The notes beneath the pieces are model-generated. The model was not told where the DNA came from and searched no databases. It saw nothing but the letters and a program-made list of their open reading frames with translations. From IMG/VR virus record IMGVR_UViG_3300032116_000037, positions 1 to 64,000 of that record: a stretch of 64,000 nt of DNA; one strand, written 5' to 3'. The translations under genes were made by a program, and so were the position numbers. The DNA comes from a virus. Positions 24,941 to 61,428 of the stretch are shown one piece after another; position 1 is the first letter of the stretch; every line of letters begins with the position of its first letter.

Positions 24941-25036
24941 ATGACTTTACAAGATATATTCATATATAGTTCAATTCAACAAAGGATAATTAATGATAGT
25001 ATTGTATGCATATACTGGTTTGCAAATTCCATATGA
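24941..25036 (+). CDS. Leader-like mini-ORF upstream of prs (31 aa)
   Basis: MTLQDIFIYSSIQQRIINDS runs into the prs start. Its sequence contains the prs ribosome binding site (AAAGGATAATTA). A second mini-ORF starting MTLQDVFYIS stands in the same place before the AAA+ gene at 31031, so the first five residues are conserved. It may be a translational-coupling leader. Confidence 0.45.
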   Translation: MTLQDIFIYSSIQQRIINDSIVCIYWFANSI

Positions 25037-25859
25037 AATCTTAAACTTTCCAGACGGTGAAACTTTTGTAAAGTTGGCCGTATCAAAAGATGATAAGATA
25101 TCTATACTATGGAAGTATGAGAACGACGGCGAATTATTTACTCTCGGTTTGTTAGCTGATGTTATCAAAAATAACAAAGCTTCATTAGAGAAAATCATAA
25201 TTCCTTATTTTCCTCATGCTAGACAAGATAGGGCGACCGCACCTAATCAACCGTTCTCTCTGAAAGTTTTCATGGAGATTCTAAAGAGTATTATTGGTAA
25301 AGATTCTACGCAAATATATACTCTTGATATTCATTCCAATACGCCATTCGATTTAATAAATCATGGTAGTCTAACAAATATAAGTTCATCAATACTAACC
25401 ACTAATTTTAGTTTTAGTAATATAGATTGTTTAATTTGTCCAGATAAAGGGGCAAGGAGTAGAGTAGAGGAATGGGCGTTAATGTTAAATTTGCCAATTT
25501 TATATTGCGAAAAAACCCGCGACCCGTCAACTGGCAAATTGAGTAATCCTACTGTAGTTAATAAAAGTAATCTTAAAGAAGATTGGAAATACTTATTAGT
25601 TGATGATATTGGTACAGGATTTGGAACTCATATAGGATTAGCAAAAAGTATCAAAAGTTTAACAAACGTTTCTATTGAAATTGTTGTTTCTCATGCTGGA
25701 TTCTCTAATGGAATAGAGCCAGTATTAGAGGTCTTTGACAAAATTTATACAACAGATAGTTTAATTAAGGGATATAATAAAATAAAAGATTCAGAAAGTT
25801 TCAATAGCCGTATATTTGTAATGCCAGTAGAAAAAGTTTTTAATTTGCCTACCGTATAA
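24993..25859 (+). CDS. prs: Ribose-phosphate pyrophosphokinase (PRPP synthetase, 288 aa)
   Basis: The enzyme makes PRPP from ribose 5-phosphate and ATP. Motifs: PDGETFVK (20-27, ribose-phosphate side), PYFPHARQDR (71-80, ATP and metal site), DIHS (112-115) and the PRPP loop LLVDDIGTG (201-209). It is slightly shorter than bacterial Prs (about 315). It sits directly before nadV, whose enzyme uses PRPP, so the two form an NAD-precursor pathway; PRPP also feeds nucleotide synthesis. ATG 24993 has AAAGGA seven bases upstream. Confidence 0.93.
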   Translation: MIVLYAYTGLQIPYEILNFPDGETFVKLAVSKDDKISILWKYENDGELFTLGLLADVIKNNKASLEKIIIPYFPHARQDRATAPNQPFSLKVFMEILKSIIGKDSTQIYTLDIHSNTPFDLINHGSLTNISSSILTTNFSFSNIDCLICPDKGARSRVEEWALMLNLPILYCEKTRDPSTGKLSNPTVVNKSNLKEDWKYLLVDDIGTGFGTHIGLAKSIKSLTNVSIEIVVSHAGFSNGIEPVLEVFDKIYTTDSLIKGYNKIKDSESFNSRIFVMPVEKVFNLPTV

Positions 25860-25871
25860 AGGAAAATATAA

Positions 25872-27335
25872 ATGAAAGTTTTACCAATTCTATTGTCTGA
25901 TAGTTATAAACAATTTCATTGGATGATGTACCCAAAAGGGATTACTAAACTTTATAGTAATATGACCCCAAGGAATTTTAAGCACTTAAAAACTGATAAG
26001 GCTGTTTTTTTTGGATTACAGTATTATGTCAAAGAATATCTAATGAAGCAGTGGAATGAAAACTTTTTTAATCAACCAAAAGAAAAGGTATTACAAGAGT
26101 TTAAGCGATTCCATAAATATTTTAGCAACTATGATATGTCAACAGAACATATTGAAAAGTTGCATGATTTAGGTTATCTACCAATTTCCATTAAAGCTCT
26201 ACCAGAAGGCAGTCTTGTTAAAGAAAAGATTCCTTTCTTTACTATAACAAATACCCATCCTGATTTTGCCTGGTTAGTTAATTTCCTTGAAACTCAAATG
26301 AGTACTAGTATTTGGGATTGCTGTGTAGTTGCTACAATAGCATATGAATATAAAAAGATATTAAATAAATGGGCAGACCTTACTTGTGATGATAGAAGTT
26401 TTGTACAATGGCAGGGTCATGATTTTTCTCAAAGAGGAAGAAGTAGCCAAGAAAGTACATTAAATCAGGCTGGGCATCTTTTAAGTTTTACTGGCACTGA
26501 TACTATTCCTAGCGTATTAATGCTAGAAGAATATTATAATGCCAACATGGAAAATGAATTAATTGCCAGTAGCGTGCCAGCAACTGAACATTCAGTTATG
26601 ACAAGTTATGGTAAAGAAAATGAAATCAATGCATTCGAAAGAATTTTAGAACAATTCCCTACTGGGATAGTTTCTGTCGTAAGTGATAGTTTTGATTTGT
26701 GGGCAGTGTGTACTGACTTTTGCGTTAAGCTTAAAGATAAGATATTGAATAGAGATGGAAAGTTAGTTATCCGCCCTGATAGTGGAGATCCTGTTGATAT
26801 TGTTTGTGGTTTAAATACTACAGATAAAGCACATCAATTAGATCATCCTTCATCTAAAGGCGTTGTTGAACTTCTTTGGAATGTTTTCGGTGGAAAAATT
26901 AATAGCAAGGGTTATAAAGAATTAGACCCCCATATTGGTGTTATCTATGGTGATAGTATCAGCAGAGAAAGAGCAGAAGAAATTTGCAAGCGATTAGAAC
27001 AAAAAGGTTTTGCAAGTAACAATATAGTTTTTGGTATAGGAAGCTATACTTATAACTATAATACTAGAGATAGTCTTGGGATAGCTGTTAAGAGCACTTA
27101 TTGTGAAGTAGACGGAATCCCTAGAGAAATCTTTAAGGACCCTGTCACCGATGATGGAATCAAAAAGAGCGCAAAGGGTTTGCTTAAAGTTAATAAAGAC
27201 AATGGAGAATATTCTTTACAAGATATGGTTTCTCCAGAAGATGAAAAAGGAGGATTCTTAGATACAGTATTCCTGGATGGAAAATTGTTAATAGACCATC
27301 GTCTAGGAGATATTAGGTCAAGGTTACAATCATAA
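25872..27335 (+). CDS. nadV: Nicotinamide phosphoribosyltransferase (487 aa)
   Basis: NAMPT/NadV family enzyme joining nicotinamide and PRPP to nicotinamide mononucleotide. Diagnostic stretches: FGLQYYVKEYL (46-56), GRSSQESTLNQAGHLLSFTG (about 196-215) leading to TDT, SVPATEHSVMTSYG (about 238-251), VVSDSFDLW, and VIRPDSGDPVDIV (about 300-312), the PRPP-binding region. Full length for the family (about 460-490). It lies 12 bp after prs. Phage NadV with Prs restores NAD pools, including after host defences consume NAD; the NMN adenylyltransferase that would finish NAD is not in this window. Confidence 0.95.
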   Translation: MKVLPILLSDSYKQFHWMMYPKGITKLYSNMTPRNFKHLKTDKAVFFGLQYYVKEYLMKQWNENFFNQPKEKVLQEFKRFHKYFSNYDMSTEHIEKLHDLGYLPISIKALPEGSLVKEKIPFFTITNTHPDFAWLVNFLETQMSTSIWDCCVVATIAYEYKKILNKWADLTCDDRSFVQWQGHDFSQRGRSSQESTLNQAGHLLSFTGTDTIPSVLMLEEYYNANMENELIASSVPATEHSVMTSYGKENEINAFERILEQFPTGIVSVVSDSFDLWAVCTDFCVKLKDKILNRDGKLVIRPDSGDPVDIVCGLNTTDKAHQLDHPSSKGVVELLWNVFGGKINSKGYKELDPHIGVIYGDSISRERAEEICKRLEQKGFASNNIVFGIGSYTYNYNTRDSLGIAVKSTYCEVDGIPREIFKDPVTDDGIKKSAKGLLKVNKDNGEYSLQDMVSPEDEKGGFLDTVFLDGKLLIDHRLGDIRSRLQS

Positions 27336-27862: not shown

Positions 27863-28238
27863 AAATATAGCCTCTGTTAATATTAATAAACATCCTTTAT
27901 TTTATGATAGTGGAAGAAAATTGCATTTTTCTTTTATCATAGCTGATGGAGGTATTATTGAATGGGGTTGTAATATGTCTCACGTACCACCAATCCATAT
28001 GGGATATTCTCAAAGGATTGGGGGGAATGAGCCAAAACTACATAGTGAACTTGTGGCTTATAATAAATCGAAAGGTTTACTTAAAAATAATTTTGATATA
28101 ATTAATGTCAGATTTAATAGAGCGGGCCAGCTTAGAATAAGCATGCCCTGTTCTGTATGTTATTCAATCTTAAAAGGATTGGGTTGTAAAGTTTTTTTCT
28201 TCTCAAATGAAGATGGTACTTATGGAAAAATTAGATAA
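27831..28238 (+). CDS. Cytidine-deaminase-fold protein (135 aa)
   Basis: KLHSELVAYNK (about 69-79) and MPCSVCYSILKGLGC (about 105-119) are the H-[AS]-E and P-C-x-x-C zinc and catalytic motifs of the cytidine/deoxycytidylate/tRNA deaminase superfamily. The Glu acts as proton shuttle and His plus two Cys hold zinc. The length fits single-domain phage deaminases. The substrate (CMP, dCMP, cytidine or a nucleic acid) cannot be told. Overlaps its neighbours. Confidence 0.8.
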   Translation: MKTKKLITHCENIASVNINKHPLFYDSGRKLHFSFIIADGGIIEWGCNMSHVPPIHMGYSQRIGGNEPKLHSELVAYNKSKGLLKNNFDIINVRFNRAGQLRISMPCSVCYSILKGLGCKVFFFSNEDGTYGKIR

Positions 28239-29370
28239 ATTTATTAGAAGATTGTGTTTTGAAGAAAGTTTCTTCTCAGCACTTTCAATTCACATTGATA
28301 AGCGATTTATCAAAGATGATAAAATTACAGCTTATGTGGCAGTAAAGAAAGACTCTGATATAGAGTTAGTAATTAACGAAAATTTTTGGGATACCTTAAC
28401 TGAAGACCAAAAATATGGTATTATCAAACATGAGTTGTATCACATCTCTTTTTTCCATTTATTTAAAATGATGGAAAATAAGGCCCTGGATAATATAGCT
28501 AAGGATATTGTTGTTAATCAATATATTCCAGCTAATATGCTTCCTCCCGGTGCGGCTACTATAGAGCAATTTGCTCATCTTAATTTACTACCTCTACAAG
28601 ATTTCATGACTTATTATAATATTCTGATGCAAAATCAGGATGATAAGAAAGTTAAGCAATATACTGATGCTTATAATGAAATGGGGGGCGGTGATTTAAG
28701 AGAGTGCCAAGATGGTGATGAAGGTGAGCAGTCTGATGCTAAAAAGTATGGAGAAGCTCAACTAAAGAATAACATGAAGAAAATCTTCAATGATGTTCTT
28801 AAACGCAATCGTGGAAAAATTCCTGCCGGTCTTGAATCTATAATGGATTATGTTAATACTGCTGTTGTAGATGAATTGAATTGGAAAGAAAAGTTAAAGT
28901 ATTTTGCTTCTGCTGCACGCAGAGTGAAAATTCATTTAACACGAAATAAGCTAAATAAACGTCTAGGAATGGATTATCCTGGTACAAATATTAAGCGTAA
29001 AACAAAAGTGTTAGTTGCCATAGATACGTCTGGCTCAGTAGCTGACGAAGAATTAATGAAATTTATGGAACAAGTATACTTAATGAGCAAAACAGACTGC
29101 GAAATAACAATCGTAGAATGTGATGCTAAAATGTATGAGCCTTGGTTATTTAATAAAAAACGTAAAATTAAGTTTAAAGGACGAGGTGGAACTTCTTTTG
29201 ACCCTGTATTAGAATATTTTAACAAAGAACCTTATAATGGCCTAATCTATTTCACAGATGGTTATTGTAGCACTAGCATTTCTACAAATAAGAAAATTTT
29301 GTGGGTTGTGACTAGTGGTGGAACAATGGAATTTCAAGCTCCCGGCAATAAAGTACAGATTAAGAATTAA
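28207..29370 (+). CDS. Metallopeptidase-like (DUF2201-type) plus VWA domain protein, copy 1 (387 aa)
   Basis: The N-terminal part contains KHELYHISFFH (about 74-84), the HExxH zinc motif of the DUF2201-type putative metallopeptidase domain. The C-terminal part is a VWA-like domain with the metal site AIDTSGSVADEE (about 271-282) and IYFTDG. A charged linker (ECQDGDEGEQSDAKKYGEAQ) separates them. Such proteins work with MoxR-type AAA+ ATPases, one of which follows 25 bp later. A second copy lies at 35108. ATG 28207 overlaps the previous gene; ATG 28222 is possible. Confidence 0.85.
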   Translation: MKMVLMEKLDKFIRRLCFEESFFSALSIHIDKRFIKDDKITAYVAVKKDSDIELVINENFWDTLTEDQKYGIIKHELYHISFFHLFKMMENKALDNIAKDIVVNQYIPANMLPPGAATIEQFAHLNLLPLQDFMTYYNILMQNQDDKKVKQYTDAYNEMGGGDLRECQDGDEGEQSDAKKYGEAQLKNNMKKIFNDVLKRNRGKIPAGLESIMDYVNTAVVDELNWKEKLKYFASAARRVKIHLTRNKLNKRLGMDYPGTNIKRKTKVLVAIDTSGSVADEELMKFMEQVYLMSKTDCEITIVECDAKMYEPWLFNKKRKIKFKGRGGTSFDPVLEYFNKEPYNGLIYFTDGYCSTSISTNKKILWVVTSGGTMEFQAPGNKVQIKN

Positions 29371-29395
29371 GTTTTTTAAAAAAAGGATAATAATT

Positions 29396-30538
29396 ATGAG
29401 TTCTTCGAAAGATATCCAAAATACTTTGACTTACGTTTTCAATAATAATAAGGAGTTGGCAAAAAAGAATCGCCCACCAGTAGCACTAGAAATTATCGGT
29501 CCTGCTGGTATTGGTAAGACTAGCGTGATTATTGATTTTTGCAAGTATAACTCTCTTGATTATGCTAAGATTAACTTAGCTCAAATGGATGAGTTGGCAG
29601 AACTTATTGGTTGGCAAGTTCGTGAATTCAAGACTGTTGATGGTGAATGGATTAACGAAAAGCAAACTGAAAATAATAAAGTTAAGTTGACTAACGAAAC
29701 TCGTACTTCTTGGTGTCCTCCTAAATGGGTTCCTACTGATACTAAGGGTGGCGTACTAATTCTTGACGACTGGAATCGTGCTGACCCACGATTTACTCAA
29801 GCTGTTATGGAGTTGATTGACCGTGGAGAATATGTTTCTTGGAAAATGCCACAGAATTGGACTATTGTATTAACGAGTAATCCTGATAATGGTGATTACT
29901 CTGTTAATACTGTTGACCCTGCTCAACGCACTCGTTATTTGACTGTCGAAATGTCTTTCAACCACAAAGAATGGGCTACTTGGGCTGAATTTAATAATAT
30001 TGATTCGCGTTGTATCAATTTCGTATTGATGAATCCAGAAATCATTAATAATAAGAAGGTAAATCCTCGTGCAGCTACAAAGTTCTTCGATGTGATTTCT
30101 TCTATTAAAGACTTTTCTGATAATTTAGATTTCATTTCTACTATTGGTCATGGATTAGGTGAAGAATTTACTACCTGTTTCATTTTGGCAGTTCAAAACC
30201 GCCAAGATAAAATCATTGATATCTCTGATATCTTTGCACTGGATTTCCCATCTGTAAAGAATCAAATGAATGATTGTACTGGTTTTGGTAGTAAGAAGTA
30301 TAAGAGCAGTGTTGGTGCAACTATTATTACTCGTATGGTGAACTACCTTGCAAAACTTAATGTTGAAGGTAAGATTACTAAGAGTCATTATAATCGTTTG
30401 CGTGAATTTTGTGACACCGCTCTACTTCCAAAGGAAAATTATTCTTATCTTTTGAAGGAAATTGCAACCATTGATAATCCAATCACTGATGCAATTTATA
30501 AGTCTAACGACACGGTCTTTACTCAATATATTCACTAA
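29396..30538 (+). CDS. MoxR-type AAA+ ATPase, partner of copy 1 (380 aa)
   Basis: Walker A GPAGIGKT (35-42), Walker B GGVLILDDWNRA (119-130) and the sensor-like TSNPDNGDY. AAAGGATAATAATT is the ribosome binding site for ATG 29396; upstream starts in the previous gene are rejected. It resembles MoxR/CbbQ-type ATPases that remodel or load VWA partners. A paralogue at 36527 is alike throughout (CPPKWVP, IDSRCINFVL in both). GC at codon third positions is raised, so the gene may be well expressed. Confidence 0.88.
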   Translation: MSSSKDIQNTLTYVFNNNKELAKKNRPPVALEIIGPAGIGKTSVIIDFCKYNSLDYAKINLAQMDELAELIGWQVREFKTVDGEWINEKQTENNKVKLTNETRTSWCPPKWVPTDTKGGVLILDDWNRADPRFTQAVMELIDRGEYVSWKMPQNWTIVLTSNPDNGDYSVNTVDPAQRTRYLTVEMSFNHKEWATWAEFNNIDSRCINFVLMNPEIINNKKVNPRAATKFFDVISSIKDFSDNLDFISTIGHGLGEEFTTCFILAVQNRQDKIIDISDIFALDFPSVKNQMNDCTGFGSKKYKSSVGATIITRMVNYLAKLNVEGKITKSHYNRLREFCDTALLPKENYSYLLKEIATIDNPITDAIYKSNDTVFTQYIH

Positions 30539-30598
30539 TTTTTGAATTTAATTTTATTTTTTTTATTTTTTTTATTTTTTGCTACGAGGATAATATAT
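30539..30598 (+). other. T-rich spacer
   Basis: Almost pure T/A (poly-T blocks) between the AAA+ gene and the 30599 gene, ending in the ribosome-binding bases ACGAGGATAA. Confidence 0.5.
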
Positions 30599-30949
30599 AT
30601 GTCTACTTCTACTATTCATGATTTGCGGCGTGCTGGTTACAAAGTTCATGTTGACCATTACCGATATTTTATCGAAGATGTAACTTGTGATTATATCTTT
30701 ACTGATAAAATCAGGAAGCGTACTAAGACCCATAAGATTCCAGTGCTAAAGAAATATAGTATGTCAACTATTACGAAAGATCGTAAGAAAGATGTGTTCG
30801 CACGCGGAGGTGAAACTGTTGTAACTATTACAACTAATGCTGGTACTTTTAGTAGCAATGTTCATTGTTCAATTGATGATAATTATAATAAAAAGGAAGG
30901 TGCAAGTCAAGCTCTAACCAAGCTTCTCGCTGCCATAAAGTTATCATAA
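30599..30949 (+). CDS. Hypothetical protein of the MoxR/VWA module (116 aa)
   Basis: ATG 30599 (MSTSTIHDLRRAGYKVHVDH) with GAGGATAATA upstream; a TTG in the T-rich spacer is rejected. Basic middle (KIRKRTKTHKIPVLKKY), then a polar glycine/threonine-rich beta part (ARGGETVVTITTNAGTF). It lies between two AAA+ genes. Function unknown. Confidence 0.65.
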   Translation: MSTSTIHDLRRAGYKVHVDHYRYFIEDVTCDYIFTDKIRKRTKTHKIPVLKKYSMSTITKDRKKDVFARGGETVVTITTNAGTFSSNVHCSIDDNYNKKEGASQALTKLLAAIKLS

Positions 30950-30950
30950 C

Positions 30951-31034
30951 ATGACTCTACAAGACGTTTTTTATATCTCCGCCCTTATTACTTTATGCAT
31001 CAATATTTTATTCAATAAAAAGGATTATCAATGA
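30951..31034 (+). CDS. Leader-like mini-ORF upstream of an AAA+ gene (27 aa)
   Basis: MTLQDVFYISALITLCINIL then FNKKDYQ. It ends by overlapping the next ATG (ATGA) and holds that gene's ribosome site (AAAAGGATTATCA). The first residues equal those of the mini-ORF before prs at 24941. Confidence 0.5.
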   Translation: MTLQDVFYISALITLCINILFNKKDYQ

Positions 31035-31894
31035 GTATTTTTAAACCAGAGCTAAACAAAACATATTTTGTTAACAAAGATATTACCAGTCTATTTACTT
31101 ATGTTGAAAATCAGCGTAAGACTAAGACCCAAAAAGTTTTACTTAAAGGACCTCATGGTGCTGGTAAAACTGAAATGGCGATGCATTATGCTGCTGTAAA
31201 TAAGCTACCAATGCTAATTATGGATTGTGCTAATTTGCGTGAGCCAAGAGATTGGTTTGGATATAAGAAGATTGAGAAGTCTAAGATTGTTTGGCATGAA
31301 AGTCAATTTGATAAGACTTTAGGCGAAGGTAATGTTGTTGTATTATTGGATGAGATTAATCGTGTACATCCAAGTATTCTGAATACTCTACTCCCATTGC
31401 TAGATAATCGTGGATTCACGTATCTAGAAGAAAAAGGTTCTAATATTGTTGTTGGACCTGGAGTTGTATTTTTTGCTACTATGAATGAAGGGGCTGTTTA
31501 TACTGGCACTACTTCTATTGACGTTGCTTTAAAAGATAGATTTCCTCGTATTATCGAAGTAAAATATCTGGAAGCTGACAAGGAAGTAGAATTGTTAGTT
31601 AAACGCACTGGTATAGAGCAAGATGATGCCACAAGTCTAGTACATATTGCTAACCAAATTAGAGAAAAAAGCTCTGGTATTTCTTCATCTTTTTCTAATA
31701 CTATGTCTACTCGTCAACTATTAGCTGCGGCTGAAGATTTTGTTGATGGTGGAGTTGATAGTTTAACATTTACTATTACTAATTTGTTCTCACCAGAAGG
31801 TGGAACATCTAGCGAACGAGCCTCTGTATTACAATTAATACAAGGTAAGTTTGGTGGAGTGCGTTCTAAGGCTAAGTCTCGTCTAAGTAAGTGA
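31031..31894 (+). CDS. MoxR/CbbQ-type AAA+ ATPase (287 aa)
   Basis: Walker A GPHGAGKT (40-47), Walker B VVVLLDEINR (102-111) and sensor 1 FFATMNEG with a D-RF arginine finger region (ALKDRFPRI). It is closer to NorQ/CbbQ-type ATPases than to the 29396 and 36527 pair. The CobT-like VWA gene follows 4 bp later, the usual partner of this class; together they probably form an ATP-driven chaperone or metal-insertion-like machine. Confidence 0.88.
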   Translation: MSIFKPELNKTYFVNKDITSLFTYVENQRKTKTQKVLLKGPHGAGKTEMAMHYAAVNKLPMLIMDCANLREPRDWFGYKKIEKSKIVWHESQFDKTLGEGNVVVLLDEINRVHPSILNTLLPLLDNRGFTYLEEKGSNIVVGPGVVFFATMNEGAVYTGTTSIDVALKDRFPRIIEVKYLEADKEVELLVKRTGIEQDDATSLVHIANQIREKSSGISSSFSNTMSTRQLLAAAEDFVDGGVDSLTFTITNLFSPEGGTSSERASVLQLIQGKFGGVRSKAKSRLSK

Positions 31895-31898
31895 AAAA

Positions 31899-33689
31899 AT
31901 GTCTAAGAATTATAAAAAAAAGTGGTGGTACGATAAGTACGACTTTGATGATGAATTTTATAAGAAAGAACAAAAAAAAGATGATGATTTTAGCTCATCT
32001 TCTTGGTGGAAAACATCTTATAAGAATCCAACCAAAAGTTGGATGTCTAAATTAGGTGGCTACACTTATTCTTTTGGAGAATCTTCTGATGAGAAGTATC
32101 ATAAAGTATTAAAACAATTACAAACATCAATTAATATTATTAATAATAATGATATTGTTGTAAAATGGAGTGATAATACTAACAAAAATAAACATGATGA
32201 TAATATTGTTTATTTGTCGCCTAATAATTTATTAAAAGGTGGAGAAATAGATGATAATGAAATTGATGTTCTTACTGGAGAAGTTTATTTATCTAGAATG
32301 ATTAAAGAGCAATCTAATAAAGACTATGATGCAAAAAAAACTGTGTCTGAGTCAGCTTTATGGAAAGCTCTTGAGATAAATATCGCTAAAACTAATCTTG
32401 AAAAAGATTGGCCTGGTTTTATTCCTAATGTTTTGAAAAATTTAGATAATAAAAACTGTGATAAAACAAAAGTTGAAAATGTTTTAAATGCAGAAACAGT
32501 ATCTATAGAAGCTATAACATCAGGTTTAAGCTGGAATTTAGTTAATCCTCATGATATGGTAGAAATACCAGAAAAATATAATGCTTGTTTAGATGCGGCG
32601 TCAGAAATATTAGCGGATGATAAAGTCGAGTATAATAGATTAGACGCTTGTAAACAAATTATAAAAAAGATTAAAGAAATTCTTGGTGTAGATGAAGATT
32701 TTGAAAAAGATTTACCTGCCCCAAAATTAGAAAGATTGTTTGGTGAAGAAAGAATATCTAATACTATTGGAGAAGGATTAAAAAATCAATCTGCTGAATC
32801 TAAAACGGATGATTTAGGTTCGCCAAAAGTTGAAGGAACTTTGGCTAAACAAGAATTATATGCTCATTTTACTTTAATGAAAAATAGAAGAATAGGCATA
32901 TATGAAAAACAGGCTAGAGAATTAACAAATCAAATTAATCATATCAAAAATAATTTGATGTTTATGGATAATAAAATGCACAATCATTCTTTTGGGCATT
33001 TATCTGGAGATATAGATGAAAATTCTCTTTTTAAAATTAAATTAAAAGATGAAAGATTAATGTCTAGACCAGATATTTTATCTAGAAAGCAGAATGCATT
33101 TTGCTTTTTATTAGATGAAAGTGGTTCAATGGGTTGTGATAATAGAATTAGTGAAGCGCGAAAAGTATTAATTACATTAACAGAGGCGTTAAAAGATAAA
33201 TTTAATATTTCTGTTTATGGGCATACTGCAGAAGGTAACGCTCCTGATGGACGTTTTATTCGCGGCACTATAATTAATGAATATTATTCTCCAAGAAATT
33301 CTGATTATAAAAGTATAATTGAAGCAAAAGCAAGACACCAAAATTTTGATGGTATGGCCATTAAACAATGTGGAAAAAGGCTTTTGCAAGATTATCCAGA
33401 ATCTAGAAAAATCTTATTCCATATAGCAGATGGTAAACCATATACTAACTATATGTATGGAGAAAAAGCAGAACAATATGTAAAAGAAGTATCTGATGAA
33501 TTAAAAAAGAAAGGTGTTGAAGTTTATTGTATAGGTATTTGTAACGCCTTCCATCGAACAGAAGGTGAAAAAATGTACGGAAAAGATCGTTTCGTTATAA
33601 TAAACGATGTCGCTTCATCCGTAGGTATTTTATCAAGATTTATTCAACAAATTTGCAACAAGAGTATAGCCGCTTATGTACAAAGTTAA
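31899..33689 (+). CDS. CobT/NorD-like VWA domain protein (596 aa)
   Basis: A long acidic and lysine-rich N-terminal part ends in a C-terminal VWA domain (about 395-596). The MIDAS motif is LLDESGSMG (about 402-410), followed by ISVYGHTAEG and LFHIADGKPYTN. The N-terminus is full of aromatic and charged repeats (KKWWYDKYDFDDEF, SSSWWKTSYK). CobT-type proteins couple MoxR/CbbQ ATPases to their targets. It overlaps the next gene by 14 bp. Confidence 0.83.
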   Translation: MSKNYKKKWWYDKYDFDDEFYKKEQKKDDDFSSSSWWKTSYKNPTKSWMSKLGGYTYSFGESSDEKYHKVLKQLQTSINIINNNDIVVKWSDNTNKNKHDDNIVYLSPNNLLKGGEIDDNEIDVLTGEVYLSRMIKEQSNKDYDAKKTVSESALWKALEINIAKTNLEKDWPGFIPNVLKNLDNKNCDKTKVENVLNAETVSIEAITSGLSWNLVNPHDMVEIPEKYNACLDAASEILADDKVEYNRLDACKQIIKKIKEILGVDEDFEKDLPAPKLERLFGEERISNTIGEGLKNQSAESKTDDLGSPKVEGTLAKQELYAHFTLMKNRRIGIYEKQARELTNQINHIKNNLMFMDNKMHNHSFGHLSGDIDENSLFKIKLKDERLMSRPDILSRKQNAFCFLLDESGSMGCDNRISEARKVLITLTEALKDKFNISVYGHTAEGNAPDGRFIRGTIINEYYSPRNSDYKSIIEAKARHQNFDGMAIKQCGKRLLQDYPESRKILFHIADGKPYTNYMYGEKAEQYVKEVSDELKKKGVEVYCIGICNAFHRTEGEKMYGKDRFVIINDVASSVGILSRFIQQICNKSIAAYVQS

Positions 33690-33951
33690 AATATTAAATC
33701 CTTTAAAATTTAAAAAGATAATTAATAAAGCGATTTTAATATCTAAAACTTTAGACGAAGTAAGATTCTTTTATAAGAATGAATTTTATTTAAGCGTCTT
33801 ACCAGATGGTTATATTCTAGATGTAAAAGATAAAACTTTTTCGATATCTAAAAATTTAGATTATTATATTGCTTACAATGGTTCTAAAGAAGATTTTCAA
33901 CATTTCATTAACATAGTGAGAAAAGAATATGCACCCAGAAAATTGGCCTAA
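33676..33951 (+). CDS. Hypothetical protein of the MoxR/VWA module (91 aa)
   Basis: MYKVKILNPLKFKKIINKAI, strands VRFFYKNEFYLSVLPDGYIL, and a DFQHFINIVRKEY helix. The start overlaps the VWA gene and the end overlaps the following gene, so it is likely co-translated with the module. Function unknown. Confidence 0.65.
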   Translation: MYKVKILNPLKFKKIINKAILISKTLDEVRFFYKNEFYLSVLPDGYILDVKDKTFSISKNLDYYIAYNGSKEDFQHFINIVRKEYAPRKLA

Positions 33952-34312
33952 CTCGATTAAGGAAAGCGAATATTTTTGCATTTCTGATTTAAGTTCTGAA
34001 GTTTCAACTCCAGTAGACCAAGCGCATGTAATGGATTTATTCAAGTATGTTGGATATCCATTTAAGTTTGAAGGATTTTATGCTGGTAGTATGATTTTGG
34101 CCTCTGATAAGAAAGGTCCTCTTCCAATTAAGCTAAAGTATATTGAACGAGTGACAAAAATTTCTAATGAAGAAGTTGAAAAATTCTTTAACTGCATGAA
34201 TTCTGCTCAGGATGATACTGTTGATAAGTTGAAAGGCTTATTTTCAAAGATGGTTAATCCTCAAGAACCTCCAAAAGAAGAAGGAAGCGAAGATGATACT
34301 ATACAAGGATAG
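33929..34312 (+). CDS. Hypothetical protein of the MoxR/VWA module (127 aa)
   Basis: MHPENWPNSIKESEYFCISD, ending in an acidic and proline-rich tail (VNPQEPPKEEGSEDDTIQ). The middle (VSTPVDQAHVMDLFKYVGYP) looks structured. No family recognised. Confidence 0.65.
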   Translation: MHPENWPNSIKESEYFCISDLSSEVSTPVDQAHVMDLFKYVGYPFKFEGFYAGSMILASDKKGPLPIKLKYIERVTKISNEEVEKFFNCMNSAQDDTVDKLKGLFSKMVNPQEPPKEEGSEDDTIQG

Positions 34313-35108
34313 ATTGTTCTTTACAATTCCTCCAAAAGAATCTGAAATTGGTTTGACTTCTAATCATTTCTATTTTGTGAAAGGTACTGTTGGATGCCGC
34401 GAAACCCATAAGCATTTATATAGCAAATATATGATTAAAGAAGTAGAAAATATTATAAATGCAGATATGATTGTTATGGAGTGGCCATCATTTAAGTCTC
34501 ATCATATAGATGTTAAAACAGATGATTTTAAAATGATTGAAAAATTCTATGCTATAGAACATAGCAAATTATATTTTCATGAAGTAGAAAAAATTTGGAA
34601 AGAATTTTTTGATAAACCAAAAATAAGTATAAATACTTTTTTATCTTATTTTTTATCTGACAGAGAAGAATTGACTAAAGATACTTTTTTAGATTTGTAT
34701 AATAAATGTTTACGCTGTTCTACTCCTGAATCACTAAATGTTTTATTATCTAAAATTGTAAATATAGATATTAAATATAAACATTTAATAGGCTGTCTTA
34801 ATTTTGCTATTGATAGTTCTTCTTGTGGAAGATATGGGGCGTCAGGTAATACTTTCTTTAGAAAGAGCGCTCACTCAAATATAAGGAGACTTTCTCCATG
34901 GCATTTGTTTAACGCCTATCATAATGAAGAATTCGCTCAAGAAGAAAACAATATCATTGAACAAATTTTAAATAATGATAAAGATTTCTTTCTAGAGGAA
35001 CTAGAGCTTAAAAAGAGATATCCGCATTTAGAATTGAGTATTTCTAAAAAGAAAAAAATGGAAGTGGAACAACCAATAGCCGCTTCTACTTCATGGGGTG
35101 ATTTTTAA
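34293..35108 (+). CDS. Module accessory protein 1 (271 aa)
   Basis: No known domain. It is helical in the middle (TFLSYFLSDREELTKDTFLD) and ends with basic and acidic segments and the short motif STSWGDF. The protein at 37698 has a similar size, a similar helical segment after a first half rich in aromatic residues, and a comparable end (TETNKWDL). They appear to be diverged accessory proteins, one for each metallopeptidase-VWA copy. Overlaps the next gene by one base. Confidence 0.6.
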   Translation: MILYKDRLFFTIPPKESEIGLTSNHFYFVKGTVGCRETHKHLYSKYMIKEVENIINADMIVMEWPSFKSHHIDVKTDDFKMIEKFYAIEHSKLYFHEVEKIWKEFFDKPKISINTFLSYFLSDREELTKDTFLDLYNKCLRCSTPESLNVLLSKIVNIDIKYKHLIGCLNFAIDSSSCGRYGASGNTFFRKSAHSNIRRLSPWHLFNAYHNEEFAQEENNIIEQILNNDKDFFLEELELKKRYPHLELSISKKKKMEVEQPIAASTSWGDF

Positions 35109-36295
35109 TGAGTTATAATGTCTATGATGCCATCAAAGATTTGATGTTATTAGACCCATTTTATGGCAATCTATCCATTCAGTTAGATAAATATATGACT
35201 GAATCTGTAGATACTGCCTGCGTGTCCTTGAAAAAGGATAAGATGAATATTGATTTATTAGTAAGCCCAAAATATTGGGATAAACTTAGTAATAATTTAC
35301 GTCTTGGTCTAATTAAGCATGAAATGCTTCATGTGGCATTCTTTCATCTATTTCTTGTACCTGGATATGAAGATAAAAAATTATTCAATATTGCTGCTGA
35401 TTTGTGCGTGAACCAATATATTGACGCAAATCAAGTAGGTGATAACTGGATTACTTTTAAGTCTTTTCCAGACATATCTTTTAAACCAAAAGAAAGCACA
35501 GATTATTATTATAATGTTTTAGAACAAAATAAAAATAATCCAACTGTAAAATCTTTATTAGACCATTTAAATGCTGGAAAACCAGCAGTATGTTCTCATA
35601 AAGGTTGGGAAGGTATTCAAGATGTACCAGAAGAAATGAGAGAATTGGCCAAAAAACAACTTGAGTATCAGATGAAAGATATTTTTGATAATATCTTAAA
35701 TAAAAATAGAGGTTTATTACCCGGTCATTTGGCTGGTTTGATAGACAGTTTTGGAAAAATTCAGCCTCCTATATTAGATTGGAAGCAAGCTATACGTAGA
35801 TTTGCTACTGGTTCTAATAAAATTAAGTTTAAGTTAAACAAAAACAAACTTAATAAAAGATATGAAGGTTGTGATTTTCCTGGCTCTATTATTAAAAGAA
35901 AGCGAAAATTACTTGTTGCAATAGATACTTCTGGTTCAGTTTCAGGAGAAGAATTAAAGCAATTCTTAACACAAATACATCATATTTGGCGAACTGATAC
36001 TGAAATCGATATTATCCAATGCGATGCTAAAATCCAGAATATTGCTAAGTATACTGGTAAAACAGTAGATTTTAAAATATTTGGAAGAGGTGGTACTGCT
36101 TTTGACCCTCCAGTGCAATATTTAAATGAAAATAACTACAATGGTTTAATTTATTTTACTGATGGAGCAGGTAGCTGCAGTGTCAAAACATTAAAACCAA
36201 TTCTATGGGTTATATCTGGAAGAAATCCATCTCATTATGGAGTATCTCAGTATATAGACCAATTACCCGGAAAGAAAGTGTTTATAGAGAAATAA
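35108..36295 (+). CDS. Metallopeptidase-like plus VWA domain protein, copy 2 (395 aa)
   Basis: Paralogue of the 28207 protein: KHEMLHVAFFH (about 70-80, HExxH), a linker, then the VWA-like domain with AIDTSGSVSGEE (about 271-282) and IYFTDGAG. The two copies share whole blocks (FGRGGTAFDP / KGRGGTSFDP, NGLIYFTDG). Its AAA+ partner copy follows at 36527. Duplication of the pair suggests different substrates or hetero-complexes. Confidence 0.85.
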   Translation: MSYNVYDAIKDLMLLDPFYGNLSIQLDKYMTESVDTACVSLKKDKMNIDLLVSPKYWDKLSNNLRLGLIKHEMLHVAFFHLFLVPGYEDKKLFNIAADLCVNQYIDANQVGDNWITFKSFPDISFKPKESTDYYYNVLEQNKNNPTVKSLLDHLNAGKPAVCSHKGWEGIQDVPEEMRELAKKQLEYQMKDIFDNILNKNRGLLPGHLAGLIDSFGKIQPPILDWKQAIRRFATGSNKIKFKLNKNKLNKRYEGCDFPGSIIKRKRKLLVAIDTSGSVSGEELKQFLTQIHHIWRTDTEIDIIQCDAKIQNIAKYTGKTVDFKIFGRGGTAFDPPVQYLNENNYNGLIYFTDGAGSCSVKTLKPILWVISGRNPSHYGVSQYIDQLPGKKVFIEK

Positions 36296-36296
36296 T

Positions 36297-36521
36297 ATGG
36301 ATTTTAGAAAACATGTTGACGAACAGTTAGAGAAAAACAGACATAAAAAGAAAATAACCTCTGTTCATGAAGGTTATGGTCTTTTGATAGAAGAAGTAGA
36401 TGAGTTTTTTGATGAAGTAAAAAAGAAAACATCTGTAAGATTTAGAGAAGATGTTGTAAAAGAACTCGCTCAAATAGCAGCAATGTGTGAACGTATCTAT
36501 AATGATTTGTATAAAGGGTAA
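36297..36521 (+). CDS. MazG-like nucleotide pyrophosphohydrolase domain protein (74 aa)
   Basis: HEGYGLLIEEVDEFFDEVKK (about 24-43) followed by VVKELAQIAAMCERIYNDL (about 53-71). The EExxE pair with a downstream E-L-A-x-I-A-A-M helix is the arrangement of short phage MazG/dUTPase-like all-alpha NTP pyrophosphohydrolases. Only four helices fit in 74 residues, so it would work as a dimer or tetramer. One base after the previous gene. Confidence 0.65.
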   Translation: MDFRKHVDEQLEKNRHKKKITSVHEGYGLLIEEVDEFFDEVKKKTSVRFREDVVKELAQIAAMCERIYNDLYKG

Positions 36522-36526
36522 TAAAT

Positions 36527-37693
36527 ATGCATAAAGTATCTGTCTCTTATAAGCCGTCTGAAGTCCGGAGCTTGCTCCAACATATTGTTAATAATAATCA
36601 ATACTTGGTTGAAAATGATTTACAACCATTAGCTATTGAAATTGTTGGTGAGCCTGGAATTGGTAAGACAACTCTAGTAATAGATGAGGCAAAAAGATTA
36701 GGTTTAGATTATTATAAACTATCTATGTCTCAAACAGATGAATTATCTGATTTAGTTGGTTTTCCTATTCGTGAGTTTAAAACAAATACTGGAGAATGGA
36801 TTAGTGAAAAACAGCTAAATTCTTCTCACGAATTAAGTGGTGAAGCTCGCACAGCATGGTGTCCACCTAAGTGGGTTCCAAATGATGAAAATAGTAAAGG
36901 AGTATTGATTCTAGACGATTGGACTCGTGCTGATTCTAGATTTGCTCAAGCCACAATGGAATTAATTGAGAAATCAGAATATATGAGCTGGAAATTGCCA
37001 AAGGGCTGGAGTATTGTATTAACAAGCAATCCAGATAATGGTGATTATGCTGTTAATAGCCTAGATACTGCGCAAAAAACACGCTATCTCTCTATCAATA
37101 TGAAATATGATAAGGATGATTGGGCGGAGTGGGCGGAAGCAAATAGTATTGACTCTCGTTGTATTAACTTTGTGCTTCTTAATCCTGAAGTTCTAGATGT
37201 AAATAAGAATTTGAACGCAAGAATTGTAACTAAATTTTTCAATTCAATTTCATCTATTAGTTCTTTTAAGGGAAATCTTAGACTTATTAGAACTCTTGGA
37301 GAAGCCTCTGTTGGTTCAGATTTTGTTGAAAGATTCTTAGTCTTTATTAATAATGAGCAAGATAGAATTCCATCTCCTCATGAAATACTAACTCATGATA
37401 ATGAAGAATATATTATTGGTAAAATTAAGCAGGTATCAGGAGATAGAGAAGACACTTCTTATAAAGCTGCGGTTGCCGGGACTATTGCTGCAAGATTAGT
37501 TAATTATATTAAATATTCAGTTACTGAACCTAAAAAGTTCAAGAAAAAGGCTTTTACTGAACGTATTAAGAATATAATGTTAGCTAAATTATTCCATGAT
37601 GATACTAATTATTATCTAACAGCATCATTTTCTGTAATTCCTCAATTTGAAGCGTTCTTGCAAGATCCTCATATTAAGCAATTTATTAGGTAA
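36527..37693 (+). CDS. MoxR-type AAA+ ATPase, partner of copy 2 (388 aa)
   Basis: Walker A GEPGIGKTT (about 42-50), Walker B KGVLILDDWTRA (about 126-137), TSNPDNGDYAVN. Clear paralogue of the 29396 ATPase (shared AWCPPKWVP, IDSRCINFVLLNPEVL). Together with 35108 it repeats the gene order of the first copy. Confidence 0.88.
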   Translation: MHKVSVSYKPSEVRSLLQHIVNNNQYLVENDLQPLAIEIVGEPGIGKTTLVIDEAKRLGLDYYKLSMSQTDELSDLVGFPIREFKTNTGEWISEKQLNSSHELSGEARTAWCPPKWVPNDENSKGVLILDDWTRADSRFAQATMELIEKSEYMSWKLPKGWSIVLTSNPDNGDYAVNSLDTAQKTRYLSINMKYDKDDWAEWAEANSIDSRCINFVLLNPEVLDVNKNLNARIVTKFFNSISSISSFKGNLRLIRTLGEASVGSDFVERFLVFINNEQDRIPSPHEILTHDNEEYIIGKIKQVSGDREDTSYKAAVAGTIAARLVNYIKYSVTEPKKFKKKAFTERIKNIMLAKLFHDDTNYYLTASFSVIPQFEAFLQDPHIKQFIR

Positions 37694-38504: not shown

Positions 38505-38863
38505 TATATATAGTAAATCATTCTATTAAAAAAGGCACTGAAATTATTTTAAAAAATAAATTACATTATTCTAAGAAAATTTCAGGTATATATGAAGATT
38601 TAACTAAAAATAAAGTAGACTCTAGGTATATTTATATTGCTTATGATGGAGATATACCTATCGGTTGTGCTTTATCTAGTACTAATGCGACAGCAATGGT
38701 TTTCATATCGCCTAAATATAGGCGTAAAGGTTTAGGTACTTTATTAATTACAAAATTATGCGAAGAAAACAAAAAAAATTATTTTCTTTCTGTAGACAAA
38801 ACCAGTTCAAAAAGTAAAAAACATTTTTGGGATTATGTTAAAAATAAGATATATAAATGTTGA
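38501..38863 (+). CDS. GNAT-family N-acetyltransferase (120 aa)
   Basis: IPIGCALSSTNATAMVFISP (strands 3-4) leads into KYRRKGLGTLLITKLCEEN (about 72-90), the R/Q-x-x-G-x-G/A acetyl-CoA pyrophosphate-binding loop of GNAT enzymes. It is shorter than usual (about 140-160) but keeps the core. ATGA overlap with the previous gene. The acceptor substrate is unknown. Confidence 0.75.
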   Translation: MIYIVNHSIKKGTEIILKNKLHYSKKISGIYEDLTKNKVDSRYIYIAYDGDIPIGCALSSTNATAMVFISPKYRRKGLGTLLITKLCEENKKNYFLSVDKTSSKSKKHFWDYVKNKIYKC

Positions 38864-39107
38864 ATGTGATAAATGTGGCGAAGTTATTTTACCTTATAAT
38901 AAAATTATAGAATGTCGATGTGGACAAAAAATTAAATATACTTATAAAGTAGAAAAAAGCCCAATGGATTTAGCATTTTCAACACTAATATCTTTAGGTT
39001 ATTCTAACAATGAAATTAGAAATGCGATACATAACTCATACTTTTTGACACCTCAAGATATGATTGAGCATGTAAAAAAATATGTTAATAGGACAAAACA
39101 AGGTTAA
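38835..39107 (+). CDS. Zinc-ribbon protein with RuvA domain-III-like tail (90 aa)
   Basis: VECDKCGEVILPYNKI and ECRCGQKIKY provide two CxxC/CxC knuckles (about residues 11-31). The tail SPMDLAFSTLISLGYSNNEI (about 43-62) followed by RNAI has the spacing of RuvA domain III and UBA-like three-helix folds (A-x-x-x-L-x-x-LGY-x-x-x-E). RuvA domain III is the part that binds RuvB. The next gene is RuvB-like and overlaps it, so a role as its DNA-targeting adaptor is inferred. Confidence 0.55.
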   Translation: MLKIRYINVECDKCGEVILPYNKIIECRCGQKIKYTYKVEKSPMDLAFSTLISLGYSNNEIRNAIHNSYFLTPQDMIEHVKKYVNRTKQG

Positions 39108-39942
39108 AAAACAAATAGAGTTAATAACTCAAAATGAATTTAAACCGACTTTAATATGCGGGCCGAGCGGTTATGGTAAAACCACGTTCGCCAGCTATAT
39201 TTCAGAATCATTAAATCAAGATATTACGGTGATAAATTGCGCAACAAAAACAAACAAGCAGGATATTATCAAAGATATCCTTAGAGTGTCAAAATATTCT
39301 TGTGTATTATTAGATGAGATTCATTCATTACCTAATTCTTACCAGGAAATAGTTTATTCTTTTTTGGATAAGCAGCAAATAAATTTTAATAAATTAAAAT
39401 TGGACGTTTCAACTATTAATTTTATAGGAGCGACAACCGATGAAGGCTCTTTACTAGAGCCTCTCTTAAATAGATTTGTTTATAAACTTAGATTAGATAA
39501 TTATACTGATGATGATTTAGGTCATATTATTTATAATTATTTACAGCAAGCATATAATAAAGACGATTGTTTTGCTTTAGGTAAAACAGCTAGAGGTTGC
39601 CCACGTGTTGCAATAGCCAGAGCTAATGCTTTTAAAATCAGTAAAAGTTTAAGTAATTTTTTTGAATATTGGGATGTTTCTCCAGAAGGTTTTGAAAAGC
39701 CAGATTATCAATATTTAGAATTATTGCGAGACAATTATCCAAAACCAGTCTCTCTTAAAACAATAGAACAAAAATTAAAAATGTCTTCTGATTCTGTAGT
39801 TAATAATATTGAATCTTTTTTGATTCATAAAGACTTAATTATAAAATCTTCTAAGGGTAGAGAGCTGACTAGAAAAGGGTTGGATTTTATGAATATTGAT
39901 AATATTGATAAATTTCTACAAAACGATTTAAGCTGGTTATAA
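39082..39942 (+). CDS. RuvB-like Holliday-junction branch-migration ATPase (286 aa)
   Basis: IGQNKVKKQIEL (3-14) matches the RuvB start. Walker A GPSGYGKT (27-34), Walker B VLLDEIH (75-81), sensor 1 FIGATTDEGSLLEPLLNRF (114-132) and ARGCPRVAIARAN (about 169-181) all follow RuvB. The C-terminal winged helix (NYPKPVSLKTIEQKLKMSSD to LIIKSSKGRELTRKGLDF) is present. Bacterial RuvB is about 330-350 residues. It would drive branch migration during phage recombination or replication restart, or clamp-loader-like remodelling. A strong terminator follows. Confidence 0.75.
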   Translation: MLIGQNKVKKQIELITQNEFKPTLICGPSGYGKTTFASYISESLNQDITVINCATKTNKQDIIKDILRVSKYSCVLLDEIHSLPNSYQEIVYSFLDKQQINFNKLKLDVSTINFIGATTDEGSLLEPLLNRFVYKLRLDNYTDDDLGHIIYNYLQQAYNKDDCFALGKTARGCPRVAIARANAFKISKSLSNFFEYWDVSPEGFEKPDYQYLELLRDNYPKPVSLKTIEQKLKMSSDSVVNNIESFLIHKDLIIKSSKGRELTRKGLDFMNIDNIDKFLQNDLSWL

Positions 39943-60945: not shown

Positions 60946-61428
60946 ATGACAGATAAATTAGCAAGTGAGATTTTACGTAATGTGTATAAAGGTGGAACTC
61001 TGGCAGACATTCTTAATAAAATTGGAGCTTCTGAGAAAGAAGTCTTATTAGTCTTGAATAAAACTAAGATTAATTTAGATGCTTTATTAGTAAAAGATGA
61101 GCCAAAAACTAATAGTAAAGTTGAAGAATGGGATGCTCAAAGTAGAAATCTAAAAATTGAAGCGGTCCAAAAGTTGATAGAAAAGGGTTATAATGAAGTA
61201 GTGGCGGCAAATTTAGTAGAAAAGGGTTATGAAAATTTCATTATAGATGAAAACACTAGCTCTGACATGATCGTTAATGCCGCCCTGCTTAAAGCTAGGA
61301 AAAATGATTTAATTAGTGTAAAACCAGGAATCGCCGTTATGAATCAGGCAGCATCTCAATTAGTAGATGCCCAGAAGAAAAATATTTCAAACAAGTCAGT
61401 TAAAGATGACGGAATCTATAAAATATGA
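60946..61428 (+). CDS. Hypothetical protein with repeated helical segments (160 aa)
   Basis: MTDKLASEILRNVYKGGTLA, QKLIEKGYNEVVAANLVEKG, VNAALLKARKNDLISVKPGI. Two short repeats of the form xIEKGYNE / VEKGYEN suggest small UBA-like or HTH helices. Function unknown. One base after the previous gene. Confidence 0.6.
   Translation: MTDKLASEILRNVYKGGTLADILNKIGASEKEVLLVLNKTKINLDALLVKDEPKTNSKVEEWDAQSRNLKIEAVQKLIEKGYNEVVAANLVEKGYENFIIDENTSSDMIVNAALLKARKNDLISVKPGIAVMNQAASQLVDAQKKNISNKSVKDDGIYKI

Follow-up and report, generated by a model that had tools for sequence, protein, structure and literature searches.

Can a RuvB-type motor be served by something other than RuvA? The question is raised by two overlapping genes in the IMG/VR virus record IMGVR_UViG_3300032116_000037 (128,386 bp), of which positions 1-64,000, the whole stretch analysed here, are referred to as the window. 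The original prediction placed a gene for a zinc-ribbon and RuvA-domain-III-like protein in overlap with a gene for a RuvB-like ATPase, and both the coordinates and the overlap (26 nt) proved right. The features of the locus in window numbering are as follows:

38835..39107, + strand: ORF1, zinc-ribbon and RuvA-domain-III-like adaptor, 90 aa
38835..38957, + strand: ribbon part of ORF1, aa 1-41, with C11, C14, C27 and C29; net charge +4
38958..39104, + strand: tail of ORF1, aa 42-90, RuvA domain III-like, with predicted helices 43-53, 58-69 and 73-88
38985..39002, + strand: L51, L54 and Y56 of ORF1, from tail alignments with RuvA
39082..39942, + strand: ORF2, mini-RuvB AAA+ ATPase with winged helix, 286 aa
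39160..39186, + strand: Walker A of ORF2, aa 27-35
39313..39324, + strand: Walker B of ORF2 (DEIH), aa 78-81
39376..39405, + strand: presensor-1 beta-hairpin of ORF2, aa 99-108, shortened
39685..39891, + strand: RuvB_C winged helix of ORF2, aa 202-270

The motor and its small neighbour

ORF2 carries both RuvB domains, RuvB_N (PF05496; 1.2e-16, 61.3 bits against a cut-off of 27) and RuvB_C (PF05491; 8e-18, 64.6 bits against a cut-off of 24.7), and its best match among RuvB structures by sequence is 2.7e-22. The AlphaFold2 model (pLDDT 92.7) matches RuvB chains in the VIA fold comparison with Z scores of 22.0-28.7, the next AAA+/non-RuvB rows reaching at most 17.7, and rows 1-45 of the 50 listed by Foldseek are RuvB (E 1e-22 to 7.5e-15). 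The proposed RuvB-family neighbour is thus borne out by RuvB_N, RuvB_C and the fold ranking. We place ORF2 in the RuvB family and do not call it an orthologue, because it falls below both NCBIfam RuvB equivalog cut-offs (147.5 against 282 and 139.5 against 299.05 bits); the RuvB of another viral locus, L037, passes both (337.2 and 319.5 bits).

Bacterial RuvAB and the pair described here share an AAA+ RuvB with a winged helix, a domain-III-like partner with both key leucines, and adjacent genes with the partner gene first. Unlike the bacterial motor, that of the window is about 50 residues shorter and has a short hairpin, modelled as strands 99-102 and 105-108; the spacing from DEIH to GATT is 34 residues in the window RuvB, 38 in most of its close clade and 42 in bacterial-type RuvB. 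In bacterial RuvB the presensor-1 hairpin is the docking element for RuvA domain III, according to the available excerpts of the structural literature (PMC9477746, PMC10272136). When residue roles and numbering from the accessible part of PMC9477746 are mapped onto a bacterial RuvB by spacing, ORF2 retains T34, R131 and R175 as the equivalents of Walker A Thr66, Arg171 and sensor-2 Arg218, whereas the N-terminal Leu20-Arg21 is missing and D96 and K97 take the place of the trans-acting Glu128-Asp129. Because of these last two differences, the regulation of ORF2 may differ from that of bacterial RuvB.

The tail of ORF1 is the part that points to RuvA. Pfam RuvA_C (PF07499) matches the whole of ORF1 with E 5e-4 and 20.9 bits and the tail alone with E 1.4e-4 and 22.7 bits, both slightly below the curated cut-off of 24 bits, and at E 10 nothing else in the record matches this family. 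ORF1 shares with RuvA_C the three-helix module and the L..LGY..E pattern, and related phage tails align across the entire domain; unlike in the family, the module is attached to a ribbon and not to OB and helix-hairpin-helix domains. When the record is read as its 1,644 stop-to-stop frames with a length of 30 aa or more, a profile of 23 phage tails from which the window was excluded ranks ORF1 first (E 2.3e-6, next 0.37), and so does a profile of three bacterial RuvAs (E 0.025, next 1.7), which aligns just its positions 145-177 to ORF1. Searched against 177,635 PDB sequences, the 23-tail profile returns RuvA for all of its best seven matches, the best being 1ixs_A (E 2.8e-4), which is RuvA domain III from its crystal with RuvB.

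RuvA_C is matched at E 1 by 12 of the 24 tails, the other 12 having no such match, and every other family is matched by at most one tail. RuvA_C also matches three full-length adaptors out of nine, leaving six without. In profile-profile comparison the tails alone fall on RuvA 158-200 of 202 (probability 67, E 5.1e-5), and the nine full-length adaptors match RuvA weakly (probability 5, E 0.0076). NCBIfam ruvA aligns by its domain III region to ORF1 with E 0.0059 and to the adaptor of L037 with 1.9e-4, in each case far below the whole-protein cut-off. Of the 45 adaptor representatives, between 20 and 23 went into alignments A7, A8, A9 and A12, taken as every second name, and A7 dropped a further three.

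L51 and L54 of ORF1 align with RuvA L167 and L170, the RuvA numbering being derived from ungapped alignment starts. Positions 167 and 170 of RuvA have been studied as alanine mutants, and both leucines are known to matter (PMC2628435, in excerpt). The positions of L51, L54 and Y56 hold Leu, Met, Tyr or Phe in 24/24 tails. Structure modelling of ORF1 (pLDDT 75) gives three tail helices; the VIA comparison places RuvA domain III (7pbm_H) at Z 5.6, tied with a protein A bundle at Z 5.9, and Foldseek with the adaptor model returned no match below 1e-3. The claim of a RuvA-III-like tail found support in Pfam, the 23-tail profile and the PDB and record rankings. As a relative of RuvA, ORF1 has a domain III-like part and lacks domains I and II, the helix-hairpin-helix of domain II being absent from its Pfam scan. 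An ORF of 160 aa shortly before the RecA gene (window 60946-61428) ranks second against the full adaptor profile with E 0.0042, matching in the tail part only.

In the other half of ORF1, the four cysteines form two knuckles with ribbon-like spacing. All four are kept in 45/45 representative related adaptors, and the ribbon is net positive in 39 of them. The Pfam scan of ORF1 found no ribbon family below 0.1; the L037 adaptor matches a Pfam zinc ribbon (5.2e-4) and RuvA_C (1.4e-4), each below cut-off. Since ribbon-like four-cysteine patterns by themselves are not rare (22 of the 1,644 record frames), we put the weight on the tail and on its recurring adjacency to RuvB.

Recurrence of the pair in viral contigs

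Scanning viral contigs with ORF1 and with ORF2 as single sequences returned nothing, and the family emerged with alignments only. The RuvB alignment led to 41 loci, 15 of which have a ribbon-plus-tail ORF immediately before RuvB by HMM, although seven of these 15 had been HMM seeds; the adaptor query led to 30 loci; and a tblastn scan with a phage RuvB found at least 449 relatives, of which the best 80 were taken. Loci L015-L158, weak AAA+ matches L051-L055 included, hold 143 RuvB ORFs, 105 with an adaptor immediately upstream, and by longest-ORF starts the two genes touch or overlap in 104 of these 105 pairs. No adaptor-RuvB fusion was seen among the 143 RuvB ORFs when long ends and the four-cysteine pattern were inspected. 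The search for the same pair in other phages, which the original prediction proposed as a check, thus finds it in other viral contigs, in varied gene settings.

Restricting the count to loci found by RuvB queries, which omits 25 of the 30 adaptor-scan loci as a guard against bias, leaves 119 RuvB ORFs (adaptor in 81, none in 35, cut in 3). In 95% clusters this becomes 39 of 70 with an adaptor immediately upstream, 29 without and 2 cut, and within the close RuvB clade 39/48 clusters have the adaptor and 9/48 have none upstream. Conversely, 24 of the 25 adaptors fetched by the adaptor query only precede a RuvB, the remaining one ending at a contig end; some loci share contigs, so the RuvB-based and adaptor-based counts are not independent. 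Nor is the share of pairs a census, because the best 80 of at least 449 relatives were used and the first query came from a pair-bearing phage.

Besides the window, two RuvB lineages show the pairing, and their neighbouring genes differ. In the second lineage, around L037, the adaptor is present in 6/15 loci, one is cut at the 5' end and 8 are without; the count covers 15 of 16 loci, L183 (a fragment at a contig start) being left out, and among the six pairs L169 is the L037 contig itself and L170 has an identical RuvB. A RuvB tree of 44 rows puts all 20 pair-bearing RuvBs within a group of 28, together with 7 adaptor-less and 1 cut, the support of this group (86/86) being below the thresholds of the tree tool (95 and 80). 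This suggests that the pair arose once and was lost several times. The window RuvB itself sits on a very long branch, and its placement is unsure. In nine adaptor-less records (5 to 229 kb), an adaptor profile search run without a positive control found none.

Several of these loci offer observations of their own. In L064 (2132-9339), a GHKL-ATPase gene resembling rIIA and several genes that have no firm Pfam match precede the adaptor and RuvB in one cluster. In L174 the pair adjoins a gene resembling, by eye, the pyrimidine-dimer glycosylase of the window (50484), and in L176 a gene judged by eye to be acetyltransferase-like stands immediately before RuvB, with no adaptor.

Beyond viral contigs, none of three different adaptor queries had a match among 50,697 records of named phages. 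RuvB matches occur in 31 named phage records, of which six were examined (L002-L007). Three of them (L002, L003, L005) show ruvA-ruvB with bacterial-looking neighbours, probably host DNA in 'phage' records, and were rejected as phage RuvB; in L004 the RuvB frame starts after the P-loop, near a dUTPase-looking gene, and L006 and L007 resemble AAA+ proteins of other kinds, all three judged by eye. With the RuvB of L022 as query, 198 named phage records match, 33 of them covering at least 80% of it, all below 60% identity and at best 39.7% among the matches listed. Plasmids gave 57 matching records, likewise all below 60% identity, and the 10 listed comprise 8 annotated as ruvB and 2 unannotated. 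Among 84,980 prokaryote species, with one genome each and one adaptor alignment, a pattern-based scan, which could miss distant relatives, gave 57 matches, none of them confirmed as a relative.

In the accessible text of open-licence PMC papers on phage RuvB or on RuvA domain III and zinc, no description of the pair was found, and the available parts of PMC8451122, PMC9127768 and PMC3364216 hold nothing on an adaptor-RuvB pair. From excerpts of related work, a 221-kDa protein of the structural proteome of phage PaBG has been named 'RuvB helicase-like' (PMC7412058), and a survey of 224 jumbo phages describes their RuvC as uncoupled from the RuvB-like ATPase found in cellular systems (PMC7824862).

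A proposed reduced RuvAB-type machine and its rivals

On balance we consider it probable, if far from assured, that ORF1 and ORF2 form a reduced RuvAB-type machine, that is, a tail-docked ring motor in which a ribbon replaces the RuvA core. The basis for this is the homology of both parts, the conserved docking positions, the gene pairing and the lack of RuvA_N in the record; the mostly net positive ribbons and the presence of RecA, DNA ligase, Pol III alpha, DnaB and the PD-(D/E)XK nuclease in the record also speak for it. Counting against it are the tails and full-length adaptors that do not match RuvA_C, the weak profile comparison of full-length adaptors, the tied fold comparison of the tail, the adaptor-less close relatives, the lack of RuvC and endonuclease VII in the record, and, in the window RuvB, the shortened hairpin, the lost regulatory residues and the uncertain place in the tree. 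ORF2 would act as a RuvB-type ring motor that pulls duplex DNA, and ORF1 as its tether, with the RuvA-III-like tail predicted to dock on the presensor-1 hairpin of ORF2. The basic zinc ribbon, which probably binds zinc and DNA, would stand in place of the tetrameric junction-binding core of RuvA and might bring the ring to branched phage DNA arising from recombination and replication; the outcome would be branch migration or fork processing. Of RuvA, the adaptor of these uncultured phages seems to have retained the motor-binding domain alone, here attached to a zinc ribbon, and our results suggest a slimmed-down motor and adaptor that is apparently undescribed. It would be a variant of the known RuvAB complex.

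RuvA_N (PF01330; domain I, OB fold) has no match at E 10 in the record, which may be incomplete, and none in 10 clade records either. This gives partial support to the original prediction, in which the small neighbour could replace RuvA. Strict replacement, on the other hand, is disfavoured, because 9/48 close-clade clusters are without an upstream adaptor and the profile search of nine adaptor-less records, run without a positive control, showed none elsewhere. A different arrangement is seen in L033, a 180-kb viral contig, which shares a virus-encoded RuvB with an adjacent partner; there, however, the partner is downstream and RuvA-like, matching RuvA 1-187 of 202 (TIGR00084, E 3.7e-13, below cut-off). 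RuvA_N is weakly present in that record, and a profile search without a positive control found no adaptor in it. In L033:7932-9507, RuvB is followed by this RuvA-like gene, which matches RuvA domains I and II. As to resolvases, neither RuvC nor endonuclease VII was found in the record of the window; across 11 records searched, endonuclease VII occurs in six and RuvC over cut-off in none.

A bolder version of the same idea, which we regard as possible but rather doubtful, is that a broad range of uncultured phages did away with the junction-reading RuvA tetramer and fused its motor-binding domain to the zinc ribbon, which would steer the ring to a structure other than the Holliday junction; the target might be a phage protein, the end of a DNA molecule or a replication fork. 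If true, the pair would represent a retargeted RuvB duplex-DNA pump and would imply that RuvB motors can take another DNA-recognition head. The pair also offers a natural test of the need for the junction-holding core of RuvA, and a small RuvB system for biochemistry.

Three rival explanations have to be weighed against the reduced machine. The best PHROGs match of ORF2 is phrog_168, 'clamp loader' (6.9e-18), and ORF2 could accordingly be a clamp-loader-like or other replisome loader with the zinc-ribbon protein as its small subunit; we retain such a role as a rival because RuvB is the sole phrog_168 match (E 1e-5) in 10/10 clade records. ORF2 shares the AAA+ core with the phage clamp loader ATPase, but its fold and C-terminal domain are RuvB-like instead: the RuvB_C winged helix is present, the 45 RuvB rows of Foldseek rank ahead of the first clamp loader (3e-11), the RuvB chains in VIA score well above the first non-RuvB row, and the adaptor tails match RuvA. 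On the Foldseek and VIA rankings and the winged helix we reject a clamp-loader identity for ORF2, and we hold the loader explanation as a whole for quite improbable. The PHROGs label for these RuvB-like proteins is thereby called into question. As to defence systems, PADLOC returned weak matches only (at best 8.5e-7 for ORF2, 5.9e-8 for the L022 RuvB and 0.0074 for ORF1).

Alternatively, the adaptor might act on the host: its RuvA-III-like tail could compete for host RuvB with the host's own RuvA, or the phage RuvB could use host RuvA, with ORF1 as a modulator. That RuvA and RuvB can function together across species has been reported (PMC9477746, in excerpt), and the existence of adaptor-less relatives means that their RuvB may borrow host RuvA. 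Yet the position of 24/25 adaptor-query adaptors immediately before a phage RuvB argues that the phage RuvB is the partner, and the window hairpin is shorter than that of bacterial-type RuvB; we find this explanation unlikely. The remaining rival sees in ORF1 a transcription-factor-like or RNA-polymerase-binding zinc ribbon with a chance UBA-like tail, its adjacency to RuvB being an operon habit. The ribbon profile does pick up general zinc fingers and ribbons, and Foldseek and VIA also return non-RuvA three-helix bundles for the tail, but the sequence matches of the tail favour RuvA and the pairing extends to the two further RuvB lineages in spite of their different neighbours, and we give it very little credence. 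The reduced RuvAB-type machine is the reading that we prefer.

Gene setting in the virus record

In the window the gene order is acetyltransferase-adaptor-RuvB. Elsewhere, the record encodes Pol III alpha, DnaB, a PD-(D/E)XK nuclease, Thy1, RecA, an ATP DNA ligase and ribonucleotide reductase. The first 2000 nucleotides of the window have a GC content of 0.55 against 0.32 window-wide, and the first 2.5 kb had no match among named phages. Between 10080 and 18668 the GC content is about 0.25-0.29, and a single ORF of at least 80 aa is listed. A ribose-phosphate pyrophosphokinase-like gene adjoins a NAMPT/NAPRTase gene (24993-27335), possibly as an NAD-making pair, and the stretch 28207-37693 holds three AAA ATPase genes, each with a VWA or DUF2201 neighbour in MoxR-VWA-like sets (pairs at 28207/29315, 31031/31899 and 35108/36527).

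Beyond the window, Pol III alpha is split over two ORFs, the N part (L008:8017-9621) and the finger part (L008:10475-11998), with an exonuclease-domain ORF between them (L008:9819-10502; L008:8017-11998 equals record positions 72017-75998). The PD-(D/E)XK nuclease ORF (L008:3081-4997) contains an intein-like insert that bears a LAGLIDADG domain.
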